DNA of 33,581 nucleotides from a virus. Made by a program: the position numbers and the translations under genes. The first letter of the stretch is position 1; each line of letters begins with the position of its first letter. The notes under the pieces were generated by a model. That model had not been told where the DNA came from and ran no database searches. It worked only from the letters and a program-made list of their open reading frames with translations. Of the stretch, positions 9,710-30,719 are shown in pieces. The stretch is from positions 1 to 33,581 of IMG/VR virus record IMGVR_UViG_3300046467_000767; one strand, written 5' to 3'.

Positions 9710-12700
9710 ATGCCTAATCCATATCGGTTGATGGGGTCTTCGTATATTAACCCTCCTAAGCCTATTGGCGCTTCATACGGATCAGTTGCTCCTCCCCCAT
9801 TGCCGGGGCTAGGGTCTCCAGAAGTTCCTAGATACGAACCTTCTTTTGGCGATGCCGCAAGTCGAAGCGTCAAAATGGGGTTGCGTCAGTCTGGAAACCT
9901 TGTTTACGAGTTTGGTGCTGGACTTGGATATAGCATGTTAGAGGGTATAGGCGCTAAAGATCTGGCTGATCGATGGACTTGGAGCCAGAAACAAAGGCAA
10001 CTAAAGACCGGCATTAGGGAAAGCTTAGAAGAAGAACTAATTAGTCAGTCTCTTCCAACTAAATTAAACCAAATTGATTCTGTTGGCGGTGCTTTCAAGT
10101 ATGGAATGTATCAGCTTGTAAAAGAAGTTCCTACAATGGCTACTCAGTTTGCTTTAGCTGCTGCCGCTGGGCTTGTCACAAAAAACCCAATGGCCCCAAT
10201 GTCAGTATGGGCAAGCACTAGCTACATACTAGGTGCTGGTGAAGTATATGCATCTGCACTAGCGGAAACTGGAGAAAGGCACGTTTCTGCAGCAATGGCT
10301 GCTGGTATCCCCATTGCATTGCTTGATACGTTACCTGTTTCAAAAGTTTTACGGGGTATGGGCAAAGGTGGTGATTGGGGTAATTGGGTAGGAAGGAATA
10401 TTCAAGGCAAATGGAAACGTCGCGCTATAGGCGCAATGGAAACCAGTGTCGCTGAAGGAACAACAGAAGCCTTTCAAAGCGTTATAGAGCAAATGGCTGT
10501 TGATTATGTTGCTCAACGTGGAATAAATTTTGAGAACTTTAAAGAAGCTTTAACAACTGAAGAGTTTAGAGAGTCTGCCGCCGCTGGCGCTACTATTGGT
10601 TTGGTCTTAGGGCCATTTGCAGCGGGTAGCTCTAGATCAAGGTCACGACTTCCTGACTTACCGCCTCCTCCAAAAGTTGAAGATGAAACAACAGTAGAGG
10701 CTCGTGATGCTCTCGCTGGATCAGGGACTGCTCTAGACGATGGCCCAGCGATTGGTCCTAGAACTGAAGTTGTTATAAAAGATCACCCAACCATTCCAGA
10801 CGGCACTTATGTTGGTGGTGCAATACTAAGGGATGAGGTTGCTCCTACAGAGGAGGCGGCTGCTCCTCCTATTCTTGAAGACTTGCCTGTTGTTGCTGCT
10901 CCTGTTGTCGAGCCATTAAACATAGAATGGAAAGGAGGAATATATTCTAGTCAGGACTCAGTAGGGACAGAAGATGAATGGTCTTTGCAACCCACTATAG
11001 ATAGCGGAATAATGATTCACCGCAATGGTGTCTTGGTTACAAACCATAAAGGAAACATTGAGGAAGCAAAGGGTGTTGTAGCTCAAATAATCGAGGAAGA
11101 AAGGGCCGCCTCTCCGGTAGAGGCCGCTCCAGTTGAGGAGCCGGTCCCATCGGGTCCAGTTATAGACTACATTGAGGTTGATGGTGGACGAATTGAGATT
11201 AAGTCTGATGGTGTTCTTTTAGAGGGCATTTCAAAAATTGATACATTTGCTGCGCCAAAACACTCAAGCGCGGTCAATGAATTTTTGAAGAGACTCTCTC
11301 TTTATTCAGAAGATTATGAAGGCATGGGTCAAACCATGAACTCCCTAGCGGCGGCTGCTTTGTCCTCACCGGGGAAAGGGACGGGAGCAAGACAGCAATA
11401 CGTTCCTGAATCAACTGAAACAGGACCAGTATCTCGCCCCTCTCCATCAGAATCTAGACAGGTAAGCCCAGAAGCATTGGAGGCTGACAGGCAATTCTGG
11501 GCAGCGTATGCAAAAATCAGAGAGTTAGAGAACGAGTTTTGGGGTGGATCTTTAAGCAGGGAAATGGGGCGCGATGATTACTCACCTCAAGCGGCAGAAG
11601 CCAAAAGAAGTAAAACATTAAAGGGCCAAGCCAAACTAAAAGATCAAGAGCGGCAACCTAAGTTTGACAGGGAGATTGATAAGCTTTCTAGAGACTTAGA
11701 TATCTCTGAAATCGAGCTTGCTATGACGGCTTTGAATGCTGCTCGTATCCAAGAAGAAGCCGGTGGTTCCGGTGTTTCTCCTGATAACAGGACAATAGAA
11801 GAGCTTGAGACTTTCCTATCGAAACTTCCTGATTACATTAGGTCAAAAGAAACACAAAGAGTCCGTCAGTTGCTTGAGGGAGAATGGACGCAGCTTGGAG
11901 ATAAGACTACTGGAACAAGGCGATCAACTAAGGTTGGCAAACTCGCACAGGTTGGCGCTAAGAAAGCATTAGAAGCAGCTAAAATAAGAGCCGGTCAAGA
12001 AACAAAAGGAACAGCCAGAAAAGTAAAACGAAAGTTAGTTAAAAGGGAAAAGAAAGCTGAATCAGATGAGGATCGTAGGCTGGCGGTTGGGTGGATGCTT
12101 GCTCCTCTTAACCTTGGCAACATTAAGCGACCAAAGGGTGTTGGCGAAACAACTAAATTAAAACGAGACTTGTTAAACAGTCTTGAAAAAATAGGCATCA
12201 GCGGAGAAGCTTTTAGAGATGTTCTCGGTGTCCCTAAAACGGTTAGTCTTAATAAGCTTATTGACGCAATGCAGTCTTATGTTGGTGTTGAAACATTGGC
12301 TAGTCTTGAGAAAAGTCGATCTGAGGCAGCAGCTATAGAAGAAGATACTTCTGAAGACCAAAAGGCAGCTATAGCAGAAGACGTTGAAAGGAGTCAAGTA
12401 AAGGCTATAGATGAAAACGTCATCAGAGAGGTTCAAGCTGCTGTTGATGCTGACCGTGCTGCCCTAGAAAAGGAAGAAAAGAAATCAGTTCTTGTTAGAG
12501 ACATAATGGAGAAAGGCAATGGCTCTTGGAAGTCCATTGAGAAGGGAGAGATATCGGAAAAAGATGTAAGAGATTTGGCTTCTGCGGTTGGAGTTGAAGG
12601 AGAAACTATAGAAGAAGTAGTAGAGGGGCTACATGCAGTTGATGATCGACATCCCATTACAGAGTTTGAAATACAGCAAGCCCTTGATCCAAACATCTTC

Positions 12701-15700
12701 AAAGCTGTTGGAAAAAGTGCGCGTGTCAAATTAAAAGAAAGACAAGCTCAGCTAAAGAAACGTGTTACTCTTATTAAAGGTAGAAAATATGTTGTAGAGA
12801 GAGAGGTTGATTACCGTGAAGTGGAAGTCACAGTTCCGTATACGAGAAGAGGCAAAGCTGGAGAAACACGGGATGTTGAAGATGTTGCTGAGGTGTTTGT
12901 TGTTGACGCTGGCACACAAGAAGAAAGGACTGTTTCTGGCAAGGAATTGGTAGAAGCAGCTAGTCCGTCTGATAGATGGCTCTTATCTAGAATGTTTGGT
13001 ATGCGACCAAAAGAAGGGCAGCAGCTTGATGGTGATGCTGAGAGATTTATATTCCCAGAGTGGCTTGTGTCAGCGTTGCAAGGATCAACTGAGGTAGATG
13101 CTCAGGCACAAGCAATTGACATCTTTTCTTCTTACGTTTCGTCAATCGTAGATCAGACGCTTCCTCTTTATCACACTTCTTTAGATGGCCCTCATTCTGA
13201 CCAACAAATAAAGGCAATCGTTAAAGAGATTATTAACTCTCAAAACGCTATAACAAGAGAGGCAAACAAAGATCTACAAAAGAGATTTTCGAAGCCCAAG
13301 CTTTTCCCAATGATTCGGAAGGGTGATTCACAACCGCTGCCTTATGCAAATGATAAAACATCAGATGAAGTTATAGAGCAAATTGAAAAGAGTGTAAATG
13401 ATTCTTTGGCAGAGCCTAAAGAAGTAACTGAAGCAAAAGATAAGGTTCAAAAAAGGTTAGCAAGAAAGGCCAAAGTAAAGAAGCCTACTGATAAGTCAAG
13501 CAAGCAAGATAAAGACGCATGGAATAAACTAAGGCCAAAGTTCGCCTCTCCAAGCGGGTTGTATGTAATGCTTGAATCAACCTACCAAGTTAAAGACGAT
13601 GCTGGTGAAGTTATAGCAAAAGCTAAAGAGCTTTATGTTGCATACGACCAGTCTGACGAGCAAATTGCTGCTCAAGATTTCAATCAAACTTTAAGAGAGT
13701 CTATTTTTGATGCTATAGATGCGCTTGCAGCGAAGTATGGTGTTATTCCGGGCAGCACTGTAAACACTTGGGAGAAGGTTCCGAAAGGAGAGATTGTAGA
13801 GATATTTAAACGGTTTAAACTTCCCTTGGATGCGTGGGGTCTTGTTTACAATGAGGGGCAAAAAGACTTTATTAATTTCAGTGAGCTTGCCTCTGGGACT
13901 TTAGAGGTTATAGAGGGGCGCGAAGTTCTTGATCTCTATTATGTTGGGAGAGCGGAAGCTGAGAAAGACTTAGGCTTTATGCCTGATTTAGAGAATGTCT
14001 TTGTTGGGGACTTTGTCGCATTTATACCTAAGACTTTACGCCCGTTTATGAGCCAGAAAAGAAAGGATGGGACTCGCGTAGTAAAAGAAGGAAAACAGGC
14101 AGAATTTAATAAGGCTTTTAATGCAGTTGGTCCAGATAAGAAGAATGCCGCTGGCGAGGCTATCCCCGGCGATCCTCTGATAACAGACAAAGAAAAGAAG
14201 AAGTTTGCGTCTTATTGGAGAAAAAGGTCTGAGGTTATTACTGTTACTACTCAGTTGTCTCCCGTGGTGGGCAAAGAAGAGACTGTTAAGCTTACTGGGA
14301 GGGTTACCAACTATACCCCCGCTATTCTCTCTGAAGACTTGGAGCCTAATAATCTGACCTTAATGTCTGAGGCTGAAAAGAATGAGGTCAAAGAGGTACA
14401 AAAGAAGTTAAAAAGACAGAGCAAACAATACAACCTAAAGGCCAAACAAAAGCAAGCACAAGAAGAGGTCGATAGGTTGGCGGACAGTTTGGAGAAGCTT
14501 GGCGGTTATGAGGGGATGACGGTAGAGCAGGTTGCAGAAATACGAGAGTTCGGCGGTTTTGATTTCAGTCGTTATGAAAAGCTTTTAATGCAGGTTAAAG
14601 AGCTTGCAGAAGGTGGCGGCAGAAGGGCGGTAAAAGAAGTAGAAAAAGCAGCAAAGATTGTGGAAGATGTCAAAGTAAGAAAGGCTCAAGTAGAATTGTG
14701 GCAAGCCGCTCAGGATTTAAATTTAATTAATTTAGAGGTTACGAGAGGTCAGCAAAAAGAATACAGCCTTCGCGTTGGTCGTTTCATTGTCACTCCAAAT
14801 AAAGTTTTGAGGGTGGTTAGTGACGAGTCTCTTGAGTTTGCAACTATTGATGAGAGAGTAAGAGATGTCACTGGAGATCGTCCATCCGATATTACTTGGG
14901 TTGAAAGAGAGACCAAGAGGAGAAGGGTTTACAAATTAAACCCAAATGAACTTTCTTTTGATTTAACAGTTATCGATACCCTTGCTCCCAAAAGAGAAAA
15001 AATTAGCTCCGCTGATTTAATAAAGATGTTGCGGGATAACGCCACTCAAGATAGAGAGTCGGTTCCTTCTTTTTTGGCGAGGGCTAGTGATGTTGGGAAA
15101 GCGCCAGTTCTATCCGTGAACTCAAAGGTAATTCTTTTAAACAAAGGGTTTGGTAAGAAAGTCAACAAGGTGTTGGATTATATTTATAACGAGAGGAAAG
15201 ACCTGTATCATGTTAGAGACACTTCTCTTTATGCTAATAATATAAGGTCGCTTATACCAAGCGCTATTATTCCAGCCAATCGATTTTTAAATATTTCCGA
15301 TCTTTCAAAAAGCGAAATAAAAGATCTATGGTTTGAGGGGGATTTAGTTTTTAGAAGGGAGGATGGCAAGCTTCAAAGTGTGCCTATCCCTGAATCAGAA
15401 TCAAGCAGCGAGGGGAGAACTTTCACTGTAACTTCTATTGACGCAACAGAGAAAGGAGTTATGGTCAGGCTTGAGGGGAAGCCTCAACCATATCCAGTCG
15501 AAGAGGTTCAAGTAATAAGGTCTGCTATTCAAGTTCCTGTGGTTGACCCTGATAGATCTAAACGCAATAAGGAAGCCTATGAAGCTGAGGTTATCGCTAA
15601 AGCGATTGCTCGTCCATTGCCGAAAGATACCTTTTACAAAGAGGAGCAGACAAGAAAACGTCGTCCGGGTGGAACAGTAAATCTCAACTATAAAACACTC

Positions 15701-18700
15701 TCCGCTATTAAGACTGAAGGCAGCCCTGCTCCCACCTATGTCAAGCTGCGTGGTGAAGTGCATTCAAGAAGGAAGAATTTTAGAGGCGCTGTTATCCATG
15801 AGGTAGCCAAAGATGAAAACGGCAAACCTATGGTGAGGGTTGTAAGCGCTGGATACAATCCCTCCTCTCCTAAAAACAGGGACAATGCTTATGTAGTGTT
15901 AAAGATGAATGCGGTTGGCGTTTGGTTGGGTGACCCCATTACTGGAAGGCTTCGGGTTATTGCGAACTACTCACGAATCAACGAGAAGTCAGTCAACTCT
16001 AAAACTGTTTTACAAGATGTTGCAAAAGAAGATCCTGCATCCTTTGGTTTTGTCGAAAAGAATCTTGGTTATAAAGAGTACAATAACAGAGACGCAAAAG
16101 GAAGATACCGTAGCGCCCCAAATCGAAGATGGGTTAATGGCGAAGGCACTGTCATTGAAGAGTACAGGCACAATCAATCAGATATGTTTGGGGCTGGTTG
16201 GTATTATTATACAGTCACTTGGAGTGCTGGCTCTCAAAACTTCACCTCTATTGCGGAGGCTTTTGATCATGGTCAAAACCTTTTCCCCAAGAGGGCTGAC
16301 GTTGATGTACAAGGGCATAATGACAATGAAGCTGCAGAAGGCGATGAAGTTTTTGAGGAACTAGGTGTCACGCCATTAGATAAAGAGAACGAGGAAGTTT
16401 CCGAAGAAGACAAAACTTTGGCTGATGCTGCTGCAATTGATGCTGGCGAGATAGTGGCTGAGGTGTCGGCTACAGGTGAGCCAATGAATTCTCTTATTCA
16501 AGAAAGCCAATATGACGAAGAAGGAATTAGTCGTGTTGTATCGGAAAGGAAAGAGAGAAAAGGCTCAACTGTTGAAGCGGTATTCAACAAGCTAAGGGAT
16601 GCTTTTGGTCCGGGAATTTTCAACATCATATCTATTGTTGAAACACAAGCTGATTTACCTGTTGGTCTTAATACCGATGAAGGTTATATCAGAGGGGTTG
16701 CATATAACAATCAGGTGTGGCTCGTTGCTGACAATGTTCCAGACCACAAGATAATTCCTGTTGCCATGCATGAAGTAGGAGCGCATGGAATAAGAGCGAT
16801 CATAGGGACAGTGGCTTATCAGAAATTGTTAACAGAGGTTGGTAGGCTGACAGAGACAGATGCTTCGGTTCGTGAAGCTTACACAATGGCGCAAGAATCT
16901 CTAGCTAAAACTCACCCGGATGCTTCGGAAGCTCTCATCCTTGAGGAGACGATGGCGTATTATGTTGAGAACAACACCCCATCCGAAACCTCAATGTGGA
17001 GAAAGATAATTGATGCTGTACTGGCAGGTCTGCATAGGCTCAAGCTAACTTACAGTAAAGACTTGAGTGGTTGGCAGATCATGGTGTTGGTGAGGTCTTC
17101 GATGAACACTCATTCAAGAGCGCTTTCCAGCCCCGGTAGTGAGTCAAGCGTCTACGTCGCTAACTACTTAAACATGCCGTTGTACCACACCAGCGAAGAC
17201 TGGCATTACCACAGCTCAGATGATGCGGCCTTGAGAGCGTCTGGTATTGAAGGCGGTGTTGACTTCATAAAGAATGCGTTGCCTGAAGCTAAAGGCTTTG
17301 GCAAGATACTAAGGATACGTTGGGGTTCAAACGAAGAGCTAAAAGGTGGAGAGCAGTTATCCTTTCCTGCGTGGATGGCGCGGAGAAGAGCAACTGAAAA
17401 ACAATCTCGGTTCGTGATCGAACCGGGGGAAGACATCCAACGTGCGTTGGTTGATTACTTTGCCATCATGGAAAAGTACGAAAAGTTGATAGTATCCCGT
17501 GGAGGGATGGTTACAGAAAGTGTATACAGATCCCACGGGGAGTACAAGAACGTAGTCAACGAGAGGCGCATTCAATTCCGAAGGGAGTACATTGAACCCT
17601 TTCAAGACTTCGCCAGAAACAACAACCTAAAAACAGGAGACGTTTCTGCGTACCTGTACGCTATCCACGCTAAGTCTGTCAACAATTGGAAAGACCCTAA
17701 AGGCAAAAAGAAAATCCCCCCTGCTGGCATTTGGAATACCAAAGAACAAGCTGCTAAAGAGGGTGGGGTAAGAGCTTCTGCTGATGGCATCTTAGAAGAG
17801 CTAGAAAGTCGGTTAGGAAAATCAGGCATTGAGAAGTTGGAGAAGGTTGCCCCTCTTGTTTACAGAATGAACGACTTCAAGTTACAGGTTCGTCTTGAAG
17901 GTGGCTTGATGAGTCAAAATGAAATCAACGAATGGATGGGGCTTGAGTATGTAAGCAAGACTGGAAAGAGGGTTCCAGCCAATGAAGCAAGAAAGGAATT
18001 TGCTAGAACCTATGTCCCCATAAAGGGTGACAACCTTAACGAAGCAGACTCTTTTATTACTGGAATTTTTGAAGATCCTCGTGGTGTTAGCGGCATGGGC
18101 ATTCGCGGCAGGGAGTCAGAAAAACTCATGGGTAGGCATTCGGCTGCTGAGAATGTTTGGGCATGGTCAATGTTTGATGCAATGGATGCTATTGATAGAG
18201 CGGAAAAGAATAAAGTGGATCAGGCTTTGGCTCGATTTGTTTATGAGAATCAAGAGATGTTGAAAAACCATATGATGGTTATCAAAGATTCTGACATGGG
18301 AGGAAAGGGAGAAAAGATTGACCTAGAAACTGGCAAGCTGTATTTGGCTGGAGAAGGTCTAGTTGGCTTACACTCTCCTCAGTTAAGAGATCCAGAACAC
18401 GTTGTTTCTTTTAAGCAAGGTGGGCAGCAGTGGCACATATTAGTACGGGACAAGCGCATAGGCCGCGCATTTAATAGAACCAAGGTTTATGAAACTGGAA
18501 AGTTCTTAAACACAATGGCCCAGATCAATAGATATTTTGCGATGATTCATACTTCGCTTTCTCCTGAGTTTATCCTCACCAACTTTAGTCGTGATTATCA
18601 AACTGCTTTGTTCAATGTAGTGCATGAGATTGAAACAAGAAAGGGGTTGAGCAAAACATCTGCAAAGCAGGTTGCCAGAAAGATAACTAAAGACGCATGG

Positions 18701-20317
18701 AAAGCTAACAGAGGCATTCATAAATATCTCACAACGCAAGAGACTGACACTGAGTGGTCTGCAATTGCTAGAGAGTTTACTGAGGCTGGGGGAAAGATTG
18801 AATTCTACGGCTTTAAAGATGTTGCCCATGTTGAGAAGACGATAGACGATTATGTAAAGCTGGGGGATGAAACCTCTGTAAAGAACTTTTGGAAAAAGCA
18901 CATTGTAAGAAGAGCGAAAGAAACTCCTTACGTTGGCTTGAATCCAATAAGCGATCTTAACTCTTCTGTTGAAAACACGATGCGTCTTTCAACTTATAAA
19001 ACAATGAAGGAAGAATTTATAAAGAACGGGATGACAGAATCTGAAGCCGTCCGTGAAGCGGCTGATGTAGCAAGAAACCTAACTGTCAACTTCACCATGA
19101 AGGGTGAGAAAACCCCCCTGTTTAACTCTTGGTTCCTCTTCTTTAACGCTGGAACCGCTGGCTCTTCTCGTGCCTTGCAGTCTTTTAATAAATCTAGGAA
19201 TGTGAGAAAGGTGGCGAAGTATGCTTTTCTTTCTTACATCCCTGTAGCTATAGCGAATTATCTTCTTGCTGGAGATGATGATGAGGGGAGAAACCGTTAC
19301 GCTCAGATCCCAATGAATCAACGGCATCGCCAGATTCACATCTATGTGCCGGGGGCAGATGGGTTTGCAAAAGTTCCTCTAGCCTACGGGTTCAATATGC
19401 CATTTGTTTTAGCAGACACATTGGTTGCAATGGGTATGGGTCAAATTAATCCAGCAGAAGCTGCGGTTCATATTTTAGGATCATTCGTAGAGTCCTTTGC
19501 CCCACTAAGCCCAGCCAACAGTGATCGATTCTTAGTTCAGTTAGCTAAGACCGTTTCTCCTACGATAGGAGATCCTATTGTTGATATCGTTTCAAATGAG
19601 AATTGGGTTGGTAATCCAATATTCAGAGAGCCTTTCCCCGGCGCTGTTGCTTCTCCCCCGGCCTATAGGTCTTGGGCAAGTACAACCGCGCCATCAAAAT
19701 GGGTTGCTGAAACTGTAAATAATTTCACAGGTGGGTCTAAATATGAGAAAGGGTTTATCAGCGTAGACCCAACTATTATTGATTACATGGCTGGATTTGT
19801 CACAGGATCTTTGGGGAAATTCCTCAAGAGGTCGGGTGATTACGGGATTGATATAGTTTCAAAAGGAAGAATCATTCCTCGTGACCACGTTACTGATGAG
19901 GTTAGCTTTAACAGAATTCCTTTGCTAAGACGGTTTATACTAGATGAATCCATAACGGGGAAGTGGGATGTGCGCGACAAGTACAACGCATATTCTTCAG
20001 AGATCCTTAGCGCGAGAGCATACAATCAAGGCATCATAGATGACTTTGGAGTTAACAGTGCCGAGTATCGATCCTTCAAAGAAAGTGACCACTACAGGCT
20101 ATCTAAGCTAGACAACTTCAGAAAATCTATCTCTGGAAAGATAACCAACCTTTACAAAGACAGAGCGAAGATAAAGAAAAATAGACTTCTTCGTAATGAC
20201 ATCAAAGAGGAAAGGATTAAAAAGATAGAGTTACGCATTAGAGATTTGAGAACCAAAATGGTTAAGATGCTTGAGGATAAGCTTGACAGGGGAATTCGAT
20301 TTAGAAAGGCGGCATGA
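9710..20317 (+). CDS. Giant polyvalent virion protein (3,535 aa) with zincin-like and LPD38-like domains
   Basis: One uninterrupted frame, with its ATG directly after the preceding TAA. Residues 143-205 and about 292-310 are Ala/Gly-rich hydrophobic segments. Residues 450-1150 and 1560-1650 are charged coiled coils. Around 1700-2230 several small beta domains follow one another. HEVGAH at 2354-2359, with Glu2412-Glu2413 about 55 residues later, fits a zincin-type metallopeptidase site (HExxxH, so the spacing differs from classical HExxH). Residues about 3123-3160 (NLTVNFTMKGEKTPLFNSWFLFFNAG) match my memory of large polyvalent protein-associated domain 38, followed by a hydrophobic segment at 3168-3188 and a charged C-terminal coiled coil. 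PLYHTS occurs twice (1152 and 2490). Polyvalent proteins are thought to enter the host with the DNA and carry several effector domains; which are active here cannot be seen. Codon usage turns C-ending in roughly 17140-17720. Confidence 0.7.
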   Translation: MPNPYRLMGSSYINPPKPIGASYGSVAPPPLPGLGSPEVPRYEPSFGDAASRSVKMGLRQSGNLVYEFGAGLGYSMLEGIGAKDLADRWTWSQKQRQLKTGIRESLEEELISQSLPTKLNQIDSVGGAFKYGMYQLVKEVPTMATQFALAAAAGLVTKNPMAPMSVWASTSYILGAGEVYASALAETGERHVSAAMAAGIPIALLDTLPVSKVLRGMGKGGDWGNWVGRNIQGKWKRRAIGAMETSVAEGTTEAFQSVIEQMAVDYVAQRGINFENFKEALTTEEFRESAAAGATIGLVLGPFAAGSSRSRSRLPDLPPPPKVEDETTVEARDALAGSGTALDDGPAIGPRTEVVIKDHPTIPDGTYVGGAILRDEVAPTEEAAAPPILEDLPVVAAPVVEPLNIEWKGGIYSSQDSVGTEDEWSLQPTIDSGIMIHRNGVLVTNHKGNIEEAKGVVAQIIEEERAASPVEAAPVEEPVPSGPVIDYIEVDGGRIEIKSDGVLLEGISKIDTFAAPKHSSAVNEFLKRLSLYSEDYEGMGQTMNSLAAAALSSPGKGTGARQQYVPESTETGPVSRPSPSESRQVSPEALEADRQFWAAYAKIRELENEFWGGSLSREMGRDDYSPQAAEAKRSKTLKGQAKLKDQERQPKFDREIDKLSRDLDISEIELAMTALNAARIQEEAGGSGVSPDNRTIEELETFLSKLPDYIRSKETQRVRQLLEGEWTQLGDKTTGTRRSTKVGKLAQVGAKKALEAAKIRAGQETKGTARKVKRKLVKREKKAESDEDRRLAVGWMLAPLNLGNIKRPKGVGETTKLKRDLLNSLEKIGISGEAFRDVLGVPKTVSLNKLIDAMQSYVGVETLASLEKSRSEAAAIEEDTSEDQKAAIAEDVERSQVKAIDENVIREVQAAVDADRAALEKEEKKSVLVRDIMEKGNGSWKSIEKGEISEKDVRDLASAVGVEGETIEEVVEGLHAVDDRHPITEFEIQQALDPNIFKAVGKSARVKLKERQAQLKKRVTLIKGRKYVVEREVDYREVEVTVPYTRRGKAGETRDVEDVAEVFVVDAGTQEERTVSGKELVEAASPSDRWLLSRMFGMRPKEGQQLDGDAERFIFPEWLVSALQGSTEVDAQAQAIDIFSSYVSSIVDQTLPLYHTSLDGPHSDQQIKAIVKEIINSQNAITREANKDLQKRFSKPKLFPMIRKGDSQPLPYANDKTSDEVIEQIEKSVNDSLAEPKEVTEAKDKVQKRLARKAKVKKPTDKSSKQDKDAWNKLRPKFASPSGLYVMLESTYQVKDDAGEVIAKAKELYVAYDQSDEQIAAQDFNQTLRESIFDAIDALAAKYGVIPGSTVNTWEKVPKGEIVEIFKRFKLPLDAWGLVYNEGQKDFINFSELASGTLEVIEGREVLDLYYVGRAEAEKDLGFMPDLENVFVGDFVAFIPKTLRPFMSQKRKDGTRVVKEGKQAEFNKAFNAVGPDKKNAAGEAIPGDPLITDKEKKKFASYWRKRSEVITVTTQLSPVVGKEETVKLTGRVTNYTPAILSEDLEPNNLTLMSEAEKNEVKEVQKKLKRQSKQYNLKAKQKQAQEEVDRLADSLEKLGGYEGMTVEQVAEIREFGGFDFSRYEKLLMQVKELAEGGGRRAVKEVEKAAKIVEDVKVRKAQVELWQAAQDLNLINLEVTRGQQKEYSLRVGRFIVTPNKVLRVVSDESLEFATIDERVRDVTGDRPSDITWVERETKRRRVYKLNPNELSFDLTVIDTLAPKREKISSADLIKMLRDNATQDRESVPSFLARASDVGKAPVLSVNSKVILLNKGFGKKVNKVLDYIYNERKDLYHVRDTSLYANNIRSLIPSAIIPANRFLNISDLSKSEIKDLWFEGDLVFRREDGKLQSVPIPESESSSEGRTFTVTSIDATEKGVMVRLEGKPQPYPVEEVQVIRSAIQVPVVDPDRSKRNKEAYEAEVIAKAIARPLPKDTFYKEEQTRKRRPGGTVNLNYKTLSAIKTEGSPAPTYVKLRGEVHSRRKNFRGAVIHEVAKDENGKPMVRVVSAGYNPSSPKNRDNAYVVLKMNAVGVWLGDPITGRLRVIANYSRINEKSVNSKTVLQDVAKEDPASFGFVEKNLGYKEYNNRDAKGRYRSAPNRRWVNGEGTVIEEYRHNQSDMFGAGWYYYTVTWSAGSQNFTSIAEAFDHGQNLFPKRADVDVQGHNDNEAAEGDEVFEELGVTPLDKENEEVSEEDKTLADAAAIDAGEIVAEVSATGEPMNSLIQESQYDEEGISRVVSERKERKGSTVEAVFNKLRDAFGPGIFNIISIVETQADLPVGLNTDEGYIRGVAYNNQVWLVADNVPDHKIIPVAMHEVGAHGIRAIIGTVAYQKLLTEVGRLTETDASVREAYTMAQESLAKTHPDASEALILEETMAYYVENNTPSETSMWRKIIDAVLAGLHRLKLTYSKDLSGWQIMVLVRSSMNTHSRALSSPGSESSVYVANYLNMPLYHTSEDWHYHSSDDAALRASGIEGGVDFIKNALPEAKGFGKILRIRWGSNEELKGGEQLSFPAWMARRRATEKQSRFVIEPGEDIQRALVDYFAIMEKYEKLIVSRGGMVTESVYRSHGEYKNVVNERRIQFRREYIEPFQDFARNNNLKTGDVSAYLYAIHAKSVNNWKDPKGKKKIPPAGIWNTKEQAAKEGGVRASADGILEELESRLGKSGIEKLEKVAPLVYRMNDFKLQVRLEGGLMSQNEINEWMGLEYVSKTGKRVPANEARKEFARTYVPIKGDNLNEADSFITGIFEDPRGVSGMGIRGRESEKLMGRHSAAENVWAWSMFDAMDAIDRAEKNKVDQALARFVYENQEMLKNHMMVIKDSDMGGKGEKIDLETGKLYLAGEGLVGLHSPQLRDPEHVVSFKQGGQQWHILVRDKRIGRAFNRTKVYETGKFLNTMAQINRYFAMIHTSLSPEFILTNFSRDYQTALFNVVHEIETRKGLSKTSAKQVARKITKDAWKANRGIHKYLTTQETDTEWSAIAREFTEAGGKIEFYGFKDVAHVEKTIDDYVKLGDETSVKNFWKKHIVRRAKETPYVGLNPISDLNSSVENTMRLSTYKTMKEEFIKNGMTESEAVREAADVARNLTVNFTMKGEKTPLFNSWFLFFNAGTAGSSRALQSFNKSRNVRKVAKYAFLSYIPVAIANYLLAGDDDEGRNRYAQIPMNQRHRQIHIYVPGADGFAKVPLAYGFNMPFVLADTLVAMGMGQINPAEAAVHILGSFVESFAPLSPANSDRFLVQLAKTVSPTIGDPIVDIVSNENWVGNPIFREPFPGAVASPPAYRSWASTTAPSKWVAETVNNFTGGSKYEKGFISVDPTIIDYMAGFVTGSLGKFLKRSGDYGIDIVSKGRIIPRDHVTDEVSFNRIPLLRRFILDESITGKWDVRDKYNAYSSEILSARAYNQGIIDDFGVNSAEYRSFKESDHYRLSKLDNFRKSISGKITNLYKDRAKIKKNRLLRNDIKEERIKKIELRIRDLRTKMVKMLEDKLDRGIRFRKAA

Positions 20318-26969: not shown

Positions 26970-27056
26970 CTGAACACAAGGCCGGGTATACTACCCGTAA
27001 TAGGAACTACATAAGAGTATTATGATATGCTACTATACACGGAGAAAAAAACGCAT
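26970..27056. promoter_or_regulatory. Divergent intergenic promoter region
   Basis: The only gap between the minus-strand recombination operon and the plus-strand replication operon, so both probably start here. For the plus strand, TGCTACTAT around 27022-27035 reads as an extended -10 (TGn plus a -10-like hexamer) without a clear -35. A palindrome, arms CGGGTA and TACCCG around TAC, lies at 26983-26997 nearer the minus gene and could be an operator. GGAG at about 27042 precedes the plus-strand start. Promoter positions are by eye and moderate at best. Confidence 0.45.
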
Positions 27057-27305
27057 ATGATGTCGGTTCTTTTCCGAGCCAAGAGTTTAAACACATCTGA
27101 AAAGATTGTGGCTCTTTCCTTGATCTGGTTGACCAATGAGGAGGGTTGGGCATCTCCCTCTTCTGCGGAGTTGGCCGAGGTGTGCCGCCTCCACGAGAGG
27201 ACAGTTCGTTACACCATCAGGTCGCTTGAGAAAAAGGTTGACCTCTCTTTTGTCTCCTTTGGTAGGAGAAATCGTTATCGGTTTCCACAGTGGGATTACC
27301 TCTAA
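27057..27305 (+). CDS. Small helix-turn-helix protein, first of replication operon
   Basis: I chose ATG 27057 (82 aa), with GGAG about 11 nt upstream; an ATG at 27027 lies too near the predicted promoter. Residues 10-60 (KSLNTSEKIVALSLIWLTNEEGWASPSSAELAEVCRLHERTVRYTIRSLEKK) form a typical winged-helix HTH: the PSSAELAEVCRLHERTVRYTIRSL part is the turn and recognition helix. This resembles the N-terminal domain of phage replication organisers, so it may help load replication proteins or act as a repressor. It is divergent from the recombination operon, a common place for a regulator. It overlaps the next gene by 1 nt. Confidence 0.68.
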   Translation: MMSVLFRAKSLNTSEKIVALSLIWLTNEEGWASPSSAELAEVCRLHERTVRYTIRSLEKKVDLSFVSFGRRNRYRFPQWDYL

Positions 27306-27487
27306 TGAGCGAAGGATTCAAAGATGATTGCCCCTGTTGCGGAAGCTCAATTGAATACAATCTTCCAGACTGGTGCCAGTGGTGGTATAACCCTTTCTCT
27401 CTAGATAATGACAGATGGAGGTTAGAGAGGGTGAAGAAGGAAGTCAGGAGATTTGCAAGGGAGAAGATAGATGAACTCAGTTGGTAA
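27305..27487 (+). CDS. Small CPCC zinc-finger-like protein
   Basis: A 60-aa protein starting at TAATG with the preceding stop. It begins MSEGFKDDCPCCGSSIEYNLPDWCQWWYN: a Cys-Pro-Cys-Cys-Gly cluster, plus one further Cys, which could hold a metal incompletely. The C-terminal half is a basic helix (RWRLERVKKEVRRFAREKIDEL). No family recognised. It overlaps the initiator gene by 17 nt, suggesting coupled translation; binding to nucleic acid or to the initiator is plausible but not shown. Confidence 0.6.
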   Translation: MSEGFKDDCPCCGSSIEYNLPDWCQWWYNPFSLDNDRWRLERVKKEVRRFAREKIDELSW

Positions 27488-28169
27488 ATTTTGGGCGCAG
27501 GTTCCTGTTTACATACTGCGTGACCACAGGCACAGGGCTGGACACCTTAGAGTGTTGGGAGCGATTCTAAGCTGTCCCGCACCCCATTTCCCCAGCCTAA
27601 ATGAAATAGCCTCTAGATCTGGGCATCAGCCCAAGTATTGTAGCAATATGATATCCGAGATGGTCAAGTTCGGTACGCTGGAGAGAGAGCAGAGATATAA
27701 CTCAACCAACGTGTACCGTCTCACAGGGTATTCTGAGGAGTCCACAACTGTTGTGGATACAGAGTCCACAAGGGGTGTGGAACTAATAGAACCACTAAAA
27801 GAAGATAATATCTCTTCAAAAGGTACTAGTAATGACATAGCTTCAAAAGGTACCAGTAATGATACCTCGTCATTCGGTGCTAGTAATGGGATGAAGTCAA
27901 ATCTTAAGGGATTTGGATATTTCTGTTCTCTGTACCCTCGTCATCGTTTAGGCTCTGTCCGTAAGCTTCGTGACCTGTGGGTAACTTGCCGTATGGAGGA
28001 GTTTGGTGATGATATTGTCTCAGCCTTGAAATCGTTTAAACAGTCTGCTGACTGGACTAATGAAGAAGGCAAATGGGTTCCCGGTGCCTATCGATTTCTT
28101 GACGAGGAAAGGTGGAGAGTGTACGCTCACAAACCTGCCAACCCACTTTCTATTTACGAAGAGGATTGA
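27471..28169 (+). CDS. O-like replication initiation protein
   Basis: A 232-aa protein with AGGGAG ahead of its ATG. Residues 1-85 form a winged-helix domain (FPSLNEIASRSGHQPKYCSNMISEMVKFGTLERE is the helix-turn-helix). Residues about 90-145 are a Ser/Thr/Glu-rich linker with a nine-residue repeat (SKGTSND twice, then SFGASNG). The C-terminal 85 residues (FGYFCSLYPRHRLGSVRKLRDLWVTCRMEEFGDDIVSALKSFKQSADW) resemble the C-terminal domain of phage O-like or DnaD-like initiators. It lies directly before a DnaB-type helicase, as lambda O lies before its helicase loader. The linker DNA carries dyads and direct repeats, a probable origin. Domain homology is inferred by pattern. Confidence 0.7.
   Translation: MNSVGKFWAQVPVYILRDHRHRAGHLRVLGAILSCPAPHFPSLNEIASRSGHQPKYCSNMISEMVKFGTLEREQRYNSTNVYRLTGYSEESTTVVDTESTRGVELIEPLKEDNISSKGTSNDIASKGTSNDTSSFGASNGMKSNLKGFGYFCSLYPRHRLGSVRKLRDLWVTCRMEEFGDDIVSALKSFKQSADWTNEEGKWVPGAYRFLDEERWRVYAHKPANPLSIYEED
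27741..27781. repeat. Two 17-bp dyads in the O-like gene
   Basis: Dyad 1 (27741-27757) is TCCACAACTGTTGTGGA, with perfect 8-bp arms around one T. Dyad 2 (27765-27781) is TCCACAAGGGGTGTGGA, with 6-bp arms around AGGGG. Their starts are 24 nt apart. The right half of dyad 1 extends to TGTGGATAC, one base from a DnaA-box (TGTGGATAA on this strand). They lie in the linker-coding part of the initiator gene. Confidence 0.7.
27814..27888. repeat. Three 27-nt phased repeats (candidate iterons)
   Basis: The core GGTACTAGTAATG at 27822 recurs as GGTACCAGTAATG at 27849 and GGTGCTAGTAATG at 27876, exactly 27 nt apart each time. The first two units also share CTTCAAAA just before the core. In protein they read as a nine-residue repeat. 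The repeats follow the dyads directly and, like the iterons in the lambda O gene, lie in the linker of the initiator gene. Confidence 0.75.
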
Positions 28170-29484: not shown

Positions 29485-29721
29485 ATGGGGCCAGTAATGG
29501 GAAGGGTTCTAAACGTACAATGGCAAAAGTTAATGGGTGGTGCGGAGTCTCCTTGTAGGCTTTGTGAGAAATATCATCAATGTGCTAGTCAAGAAACGGC
29601 TTGCGAACAGTTTCAGAATTACATTGAGACGGGAGAGGTTGAATTGATTATTCCACGGGAGCCAACAAAAGAGATATTCATGGAAATTTATTATGAGGAA
29701 GAGATCAAAGGAGAATTTTAA
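29485..29721 (+). CDS. Small cysteine-containing protein
   Basis: I chose ATG 29485 (AAGG six bases upstream), giving 78 aa; 29449 and 29497 are alternatives, the first of which lies within the previous gene. SPCRLCEKYHQCASQETACEQF holds four cysteines that could bind a metal. The C-terminus is acidic (EPTKEIFMEIYYEEEIKGEF). No family recognised. It overlaps the antiterminator-like gene by 29 nt. Confidence 0.55.
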   Translation: MGPVMGRVLNVQWQKLMGGAESPCRLCEKYHQCASQETACEQFQNYIETGEVELIIPREPTKEIFMEIYYEEEIKGEF

Positions 29722-30223
29722 ATCTCTAACGCCGCCATCCCCTTCGATTTGGAAGGAGTTTAACCCTAGAGTTCCTTGGGAAGAGATGGCTATGGTTCTA
29801 GCGCACTGCCCAGACATCGTATCAAAGTACGCCAGACTAAAATATGCTCTTGATCTGACCTGTATACCTCAAGTAATGTTTCACATTCATAAACACATAG
29901 ATAAATTTGAATGGGCTATGAATCATTGCCCAAAAAACTTCCATCAAAAACTTACTGAATTAGCAGTGCATGAAGCCACGATGAGTGATGTTTGCTCCCG
30001 ATGCAACTCAAAGGGTTACGTTAGCACTGGCTTTAAGTACATCCAATGTTGGGCTTGCGATGGGAGTGGAGTTTTAATTAGAACCGAAGGATTTAGGGCG
30101 AAGTATGTAAATATATCATCAGTATCTTGGCATAAAAAATGGAAGCGGAGGTTTAGGAGAGACATTATGAGTGAGTTTCAGGAGTTTGAATTCAAACTAG
30201 ACGATGCGCTCAGAAGGCTTTAG
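29693..30223 (+). CDS. Zinc-finger protein resembling Q-type late antiterminators
   Basis: A 176-aa protein. CSRCNSKG (Cys101, Cys104) and CWACDGSG (Cys119, Cys122) form a DnaJ-like or Q-like zinc ribbon, and the C-terminus is basic then helical (WHKKWKRRFRRDIMSEFQEFEFKLDDALRRL). Lambdoid Q proteins carry a comparable CxxCxGxG pair and load on RNA polymerase to read through a terminator. Here it would be the last main gene of the replication operon, next to a promoter-like site and repeats, as Q often is. But no late promoter and terminator pair facing the virion genes is in the window. A general zinc-binding protein is the alternative. Confidence 0.5.
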   Translation: MRKRSKENFKSLTPPSPSIWKEFNPRVPWEEMAMVLAHCPDIVSKYARLKYALDLTCIPQVMFHIHKHIDKFEWAMNHCPKNFHQKLTELAVHEATMSDVCSRCNSKGYVSTGFKYIQCWACDGSGVLIRTEGFRAKYVNISSVSWHKKWKRRFRRDIMSEFQEFEFKLDDALRRL

Positions 30224-30252
30224 GTTTGAACTGGTTTGAACTGGTTTGAACT
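30183..30252. repeat. GTTTGAA cluster: palindrome and three tandem 10-mers
   Basis: AGTTTGAATTCAAACT at 30183-30198 is a perfect 16-bp palindrome inside the end of the antiterminator-like gene. Starting at 30223 the unit GGTTTGAACT is repeated three times in tandem (30223-30252). All five half-sites share GTTTGAA. A -10-like TATACT lies at 30263-30268, placing the tandem repeats just upstream of a possible promoter, where an activator or repressor would bind. Confidence 0.7.
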
Positions 30253-30262
30253 GCGGCCCTTT

Positions 30263-30268
30263 TATACT
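30263..30268 (+). promoter_or_regulatory. Possible promoter -10 for the small gene at 30289
   Basis: TATACT matches the -10 consensus at five of six bases. No -35 stands at 17 nt; the TTGAAC in the tandem repeats stands at 11 or 21 nt. With the repeats centred about 25-40 bases upstream it looks more like an activator-dependent promoter than a strong unaided one. This is a guess from spacing. Confidence 0.35.
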
Positions 30269-30288
30269 ATCAACAATTAGGGGGGTGC

Positions 30289-30510
30289 ATGGCACAGTAC
30301 AAGAAGTACGAGAAGGAAGGCTGGCAAGGATTCTGGAGGCCAGAGGGAAAGAACTTGGATCTGTACCAGATGGAGAGGGATGACCAGTATGGGGAGGCGT
30401 TGATCCCAGAGAATACGGGGAGGATGGTTCCGTATTGGGTTCGGACGGTGAGCCTAAAATCTGAAAAGGAAGCGAAAGAATATTTTGAATCAGATAAGGT
30501 GAGGACATAA
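30289..30510 (+). CDS. Small hypothetical protein, Trp/Tyr/Lys-rich
   Basis: A 73-aa protein preceded by a GGGGGGTG ribosome site. Content: MAQYKKYEKEGWQGFWRPEGKNLDLYQMERDDQYGEALIPENTGRMVPYWVRT, then a Lys/Glu-rich tail. It is soluble, with no cysteine. No family recognised. It follows the GTTTGAA repeats and a possible promoter, so it may be the gene these sites control. Confidence 0.55.
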   Translation: MAQYKKYEKEGWQGFWRPEGKNLDLYQMERDDQYGEALIPENTGRMVPYWVRTVSLKSEKEAKEYFESDKVRT

Positions 30511-30568: not shown

Positions 30569-30596
30569 GTAAGTTATCAATCGAAGGGGGGGTATA

Positions 30597-30661
30597 TGGT
30601 ATAATGTAAGTATGAAGATGGAGGAATTGCAGCTTAGGTTAATGTTAGAAATCTAACATTA
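30597..30661 (+). promoter_or_regulatory. Extended -10 promoter, mini-ORF and palindrome copy 2
   Basis: TGGTATAAT at 30597-30605 is a perfect extended -10. ATG at 30612 opens a 14-codon frame that ends LEI and stops at 30656. The palindrome, arms TAATGTTAGA and TCTAACATTA around AA, is at 30640-30661, with all ten arm positions complementary. Downstream lie only minus-strand genes, so a short regulatory transcript or an antisense RNA is the likeliest product. Confidence 0.5.
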
Positions 30662-30676
30662 GGTGGGATTTAAGCC

Positions 30677-30702
30677 AAAAAAAAGCCCCGCCGAAGCGAG
30701 GC
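30677..30702 (-). terminator. Rho-independent terminator of the right-hand minus operon
   Basis: Read on the minus strand, the arms GCCTCGC and GCGGGGC (one T-G pair) close a TTCG loop, followed by eight T residues (30684-30677). It lies 18 bases after the stop of the last minus-strand gene (30720), exactly where an operon terminator is expected. It would also stop plus-strand transcripts poorly, since the T-run on that strand is 12 bases away. Confidence 0.85.
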
Positions 30703-30719
30703 TAATAGGAGGAGTTTTT

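Follow-up and report, generated by a model that had tools for sequence, protein, structure and literature searches.

A tandem decamer array behind a lambda-Q-like gene in a marine phage, a probable protein-binding address that recurs near the late genes of unrelated phages

What does a dense cluster of short repeats do directly behind a candidate antiterminator gene of a marine phage, and which protein reads it? The window analysed here is a complete IMG/VR virus record of 33,581 bases, in which a sequence-only reading had singled out five GTTTGAA half-sites as an operator-like cluster next to an antiterminator-like gene. A scan of the window placed all five where that reading had them (30184+, 30191-, 30224+, 30234+ and 30244+, the signs giving the strand). 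Window-wide, GTTTGAA is not enriched (11 found against 7.5 expected, a count reached by 14 of 100 shuffles), and so only the cluster matters: five half-sites fall within 86 bp, compared with at most two in shuffles. The last three half-sites are parts of an exact tandem array of 3.1 copies of GGTTTGAACT on the plus strand at 30223..30253 (TRF, 100%), which confirms the three tandem 10-mers that had been described. At 31 nt, it is the longest exact period-10 run in the window, compared with no more than 21 nt in 200 dinucleotide shuffles. The array is real and far beyond chance. The search of the window for further arrays that had been proposed found no exact GGTTTGAACT elsewhere in the 33,581 nt. 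The unit is quasi-palindromic (GTTnnAAC) and reads GTTnnAACnn on both strands, a property that may explain why inversion of the array is tolerated among relatives (see below).

The first two half-sites make up a perfect 16-bp palindrome, AGTTTGAATTCAAACT, at 30183..30198. It exists as described, but it is not part of the element, because it lies in coding sequence inside the gene end, where synonymous changes have erased it in close relatives. The two closest relatives (L003 and L004, 83-88% nucleotide identity over the region) read GAGTTTGAGTTTAAACTTGAT at its position while keeping the EFEFKL peptide. The palindrome was therefore rejected as a regulatory site and judged to be coincidental coding sequence.

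Behind the array, a GC-rich spacer leads into the C/T-rich stretch CCCTTTT (30253..30260, plus strand), which is followed by a conserved block, TTTATACTATCAACA (30261..30275, plus strand). The TATACT that had been noted after the array was found within this block at 30263-30268. In the family, the two elements take the form CYYTTTTTnn-AAATACTRTCAWCA, with the C/T stretch preceding the block in nearly all relatives, including those that lack the array. The block occurs once in the window, is present in most relatives, and is retained without the array in L064, L070, L074, L076 and L147; this persistence in array-less relatives makes it the more constant of the two. It is promoter-like by sequence, and we infer that it may serve as a promoter. 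As a sigma-70 consensus promoter, TATACT was rejected: no -35 hexamer lies 16-18 bp ahead of it, and it does not appear in the list returned by the consensus promoter scan. 

The element was followed across the family of the window using two samples, a helicase scan that yielded 30 relatives and a scan with the array-adjacent protein that yielded 21 loci (the DUF932 alignment A3 was too divergent and was left out). Behind the stop codon of the Q-like gene, the order in relatives is array, C/T-rich stretch, AAATACTRTCAWCA and an extended -10 promoter-like sequence, ACCCCCCAATATGNTATAATG. In the roughly 20 relatives compared, the array, where present, has 1-3.5 units, and its place is unchanged in relatives at approximately 70% nucleotide identity (L021, L056, L059, L069, L071 and L072). 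It is forward in L021/L072, L056, L059, L069, L071, L073 and L077, inverted in seven relatives (L052-54, L058, L065, L066 and L068), and absent behind the Q-like gene in L064, L070, L074, L075, L076, L078 and L147. Loss of the repeats in close relatives, which the sequence-only reading had named as an observation that would count against it, is found in part: L003 and L004 retain a single exact GGTTTGAACT where the last unit stands, with GGTTCGGGAACC ahead of it and TTTATACTATCAACA behind, while more distant relatives carry 2-3.5 copies. The idea of strict helical phasing against the promoter was given up, as the distance from array to block ranges from 27 to 35 bp in the family (an 8-bp variation) and seven relatives have the array inverted. 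In one subclade (L017/L078 and L038/L178), the array has been relocated together with a block of its own (AATCCTATCATCA / AAACCTATCATGC) and faces rightward late genes, which in L178/L017 lie 1.3-1.6 kb away.

Two coding features were recorded in passing. A cysteine-rich gene of approximately 210 aa (GGLSNxxKMPxxSxG) is common to the array phages L017, L038 and L026 (L178 516-1169, L078 10428-11087, L026 1615-2229). The window also encodes a 3535-aa ORF at 9710-20317 that takes up about one third of the record.

The gene whose end adjoins the array (29693..30223, plus strand) encodes a 176-aa protein with a zinc finger of the form CxxC..CxxCxGSG and is a candidate late antiterminator. An AlphaFold (AF2) model built on a 19-sequence alignment had a pLDDT of 71. 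Searched against the PDB with Foldseek, this model matched three lambda Q entries, which include Q within antitermination complexes and Q by itself (probabilities: 7ubm_Q, 0.97; 7ubn_Q, 0.96; 4mo1_B, 0.60), with the next match at 0.05 and weak E-values of 0.3-1. Lambda Q is the only credible structural match of the modelled protein; because the E-values are weak, we take this likeness as a specific lead and not as proof. Pfam gave no assignment, a DnaJ-type zinc finger being the sole signal, and the Q families PF03589, PF06530 and PF06323 gave no match, although the PF06323 search was silent in every control genome as well. The earlier statement that no regulator is recognisable in the window is thus modified, since the adjacent 176-aa protein is itself a candidate. 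As for the proposed operator next to an antiterminator-like gene, what survives is a recurrent array that adjoins a Q-like gene and precedes a conserved TATACT block, and what falls away is the palindrome.

The reading we lean towards, at somewhat less than even confidence, is that the array provides several copies of a protein-binding site where a late module begins, here serving late-transcription control and probably read by the Q-like protein. In the proposed sequence of events, early transcription would lead to synthesis of the Q-like protein; this protein or a partner would bind the array; the bound protein would act on RNA polymerase at the block; and late transcription would then be switched on or become resistant to termination. 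Both the Q-like protein as the binder and the regulatory outcome are inferred from this arrangement. Evidence for late control comes from the array being beyond chance and holding its position in relatives at approximately 70% identity, from the lambda Q entries being the best PDB fold matches of the preceding gene, from the promoter-like block behind the array, from a Q homologue that also occurs with the array upstream of a late operon in L030, and from the array preceding a late operon in L016 and facing late genes in L178/L017. The quasi-palindromic unit, which would permit the flips in orientation, and the lack of a further exact copy in the window also count in its favour. Against it stand the relatives that have the Q gene and no array there, the off-canonical position of the array, the missing tR'-type terminator, the leftward genes behind the block in most relatives, and the weak Foldseek E-value (0.3). 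In the broader Q-bearing genomes, other genes come after Q, and neither array nor block is present.

Lambdoid Q proteins provide the natural comparison. They act via sites that lie within the late promoter as direct repeats or side by side (PMC6606751, PMC7171158); the Q-binding element (QBE) of phage 21 is a direct repeat (PMC6606751), and three Q families have been described (PMC7171158). The locus resembles the QBE and pR' of lambda and 21 in having repeated subsites behind gene Q and near a -10-like sequence. It differs in unit length (10 bp against 6 bp), in the position of the units, which lie ahead of the usual -35/-10 interval, and in their number of 1-3.5; the units can also be inverted or absent, and no tR' was found with them. 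Taking TATACT as the -10, the array in the window spans approximately -52 to -23 and is not placed between -35 and -10; in several relatives the last unit starts at -32 to -40, and its orientation varies. Over the 600 nt downstream, no tR'-type terminator (hairpin plus T-run) on the same strand is conserved among family members. In most relatives the genes after the block run leftward, as they do in the window, after which the record ends. Late genes lie downstream on the same strand in L030 and L016, as well as in L178/L017, where one leftward gene comes first.

Downstream of the block lies a second promoter-like element on the plus strand (30586..30606), a G-run followed by an extended -10, TATATGGTATAATG, with the family form ACCCCCCAATATGNTATAAT. 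The extended -10 promoter-like sequence ACCCCCCAATATGNTATAATG lies 60-90 bp past the block in relatives and 330 bp past it in the window, where a 73-aa ORF (30289..30510, plus strand; 89% identical in L005/L006) is found between block and promoter in the window's subclade. Most members of the window family carry the ACCCCCCAATATGNTATAAT element, in a single copy in each record checked, and it is also found in a broader set of marine phages that share terL (L152-L177). A terminator scan predicted an intrinsic terminator of the converging leftward genes on the minus strand at 30684..30703; it occupies the same place in L021, L004 and L060 and faces the rightward promoter. The rightward promoter could therefore give rise to a short, hairpin-bearing transcript (hairpin at 30640-30665) of approximately 90 nt.

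The array is not confined to this family. An IMG/VR scan found the exact two-copy array in 32 contigs of ten lineages: the window family (L017, L021, L038), an 18-contig group around L007, L031/32/37, L022, L023, L028, L016, L026, L030 and L008/33. The reversed control word gave no IMG/VR match, a null that is thin in that it consists of a single control decamer. The scan required exact copies and so selects for unchanged units, which also applies to the L007 group, where the unit is unchanged over arrays of 2 to 5 copies. Across 84,980 cellular genomes (257 Gb), the exact two-copy array occurred three times, once in the phage contig L026, once inside a coding sequence and once in a Tolumonas locus. 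A literature search for the decamer gave, among the papers listed, incidental oligonucleotide matches only. Tandem slippage without function is an unlikely explanation for a decamer that recurs while its reversed control scores zero and that is nearly absent from cellular genomes.

In the lineages where gene order can be read, the shared feature is a position at the start of the late module. The contig L030 has the order Q homologue, HNH, small gene, array, muramidase-like gene, terS and terL (names read from the sequences). Its Q homologue is distant (hmmsearch E 1.4e-8, in the N- and C-terminal parts) and its TerS and TerL are of other types. L030 is a bridge between the Q-adjacent and the terminase-adjacent settings of the array. 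In L016, the array lies ahead of a rightward lysozyme-terminase operon, and in L026 it lies 2.8 kb ahead of terL. No array was found among the broader TerL relatives except on the known L038 contig. Because the word recurs at the late-gene start or packaging cut site of unrelated phages, the array is very probably a real protein-binding address.

The terminase-adjacent setting is that of five HK97-like lineages (the L007 group, L031/32/37, L022, L023 and L028), whose TerLs are mutually homologous and whose TerS is phrog_83 in L007, L022 and L028. The array adjoins terS in all five, with a methylase-like gene between them in L023. In the L007 group, nine contigs start at one base (TG), 35 bp before the array, and three end exactly at ..GTATAAAC; intact junctions read GTATAAAC-CCCGATGCCC-TG, flanked by HNH on the left side and terS on the right. 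These ends point to a cos site with the 10-nt overhang CCCGATGCCC, its single strands lost at the contig ends. Similarly, L032 and L037 both begin at GTTTAGAAG, while L031 reads through AAACC-GGCCGCCAAG-GTTTAG. HK97-like cos sites with 10-nt overhangs (CCCGATGCCC; GGCCGCCAAG) can thus be read from metagenome contig ends (L010, L013, L018, L025, L029, L034, L031, L032 and L037).

Such junctions raise the alternative that the array is a packaging-initiation element of the cosB or pac kind, bound by TerS, with the cut marked by the conserved block at a distance of 16-28 bp. Words that terminase binds are also repeated close to the cut in the R-sites of lambda cosB and in the pac site of SPP1; the array is like them in consisting of repeated words and differs in sequence, length and spacing, and the window shows no terminus. 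The adjacency to terS in the five HK97-like lineages and the precise contig ends in the L007 group and L032/L037, which indicate a cos near the array, give packaging strong support in those phages. HK97 TerS binds +15 to +29 from its cut (PMC11331095), a comparable place, since in the array-bearing HK97-like phages the array lies tens of bp from a 10-nt-overhang cos and before terS. HK97's own TerS site, however, is another sequence, CTAACCCGATTTTTT, and the terS of the window family is of a different type (HTH) and far from the array: in L178 it lies approximately 8 kb away, and no gene in the window record was recognised as a terminase. Within this family, packaging is hinted at by three independent contigs, L066, L058 and L075, whose right ends all lie within 2 nt of one position in the block. 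None of 13 contigs starts on its far side, however, and the block at which L075 ends is without an array. A physical end at the block, as these contig ends suggest, was therefore not accepted: partner starts are lacking, and strain branching in the assembly could look alike. In cultured phages, the best match to the array is a degenerate one in Streptomyces Immanueltrevirus (L042 3501-3528; MG663582.1 521-548), situated between the left genome end and the terminase; it would fit packaging, albeit at an E-value of approximately 1. The array is absent from the TerS upstream regions of the 11 P27-TerS phages checked and was rejected as a general P27-TerS motif. Overall, we regard packaging initiation as the main rival to late control, though a doubtful one.

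A different reader could also be at work. The quasi-palindromic unit and its orientation flips fit an operator, and the array recurs in phages as unrelated as the window family and the HK97-like group, which share no protein detectable by BLASTP. Both would agree with a non-Q phage repressor or activator, or a host DNA-binding protein, acting on the TATACT promoter. No repressor gene was recognised nearby, however, the genome has no second array site, and in the HK97-like phages no promoter separates the array from the terS ribosome site that it adjoins, all of which leaves this operator reading with a low probability. The Q-based reading of late control has its own difficulty with these phages, as no Q could be detected in the array-bearing HK97-like members.

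The array could instead need no dedicated binding protein and be a short mosaic linker at gene ends that promotes module exchange. It does sit at gene boundaries, supplying the stop codon in L021 and L069 and abutting the terS ribosome site in L022, L028 and L031; contigs break at it, and its copy number varies from 2 to 5. The same decamer is nevertheless unchanged across unrelated phages and scarce in cellular genomes, and it lies near late modules, not at random gene ends, so that we rate a linker as improbable. Replication iterons were also considered and rejected, the O-like initiator genes being at 27027-28169, approximately 2 kb from the array.

Repeats recognised in late control or packaging are a known kind of element, and the surprising part is the recurrence of one decamer across phages. 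As a conjecture that we think unlikely, one address, (GTTTGAACTG)n, may mark the late-module start of unrelated tailed phages, the HK97-like cos included, and its reader may be a single conserved factor, possibly encoded by the host, through which late transcription or packaging is coupled to that point. That a decamer is common to phages with no BLAST-detectable shared protein poses the question whether recognition has converged, whether a host factor is shared or whether a control cassette has been exchanged. Should the array be an address for late control or packaging, it would offer a searchable 20-nt flag by which the beginning of the late module could be located in uncultured phages, and it would serve as a DNA bait for its reader protein.
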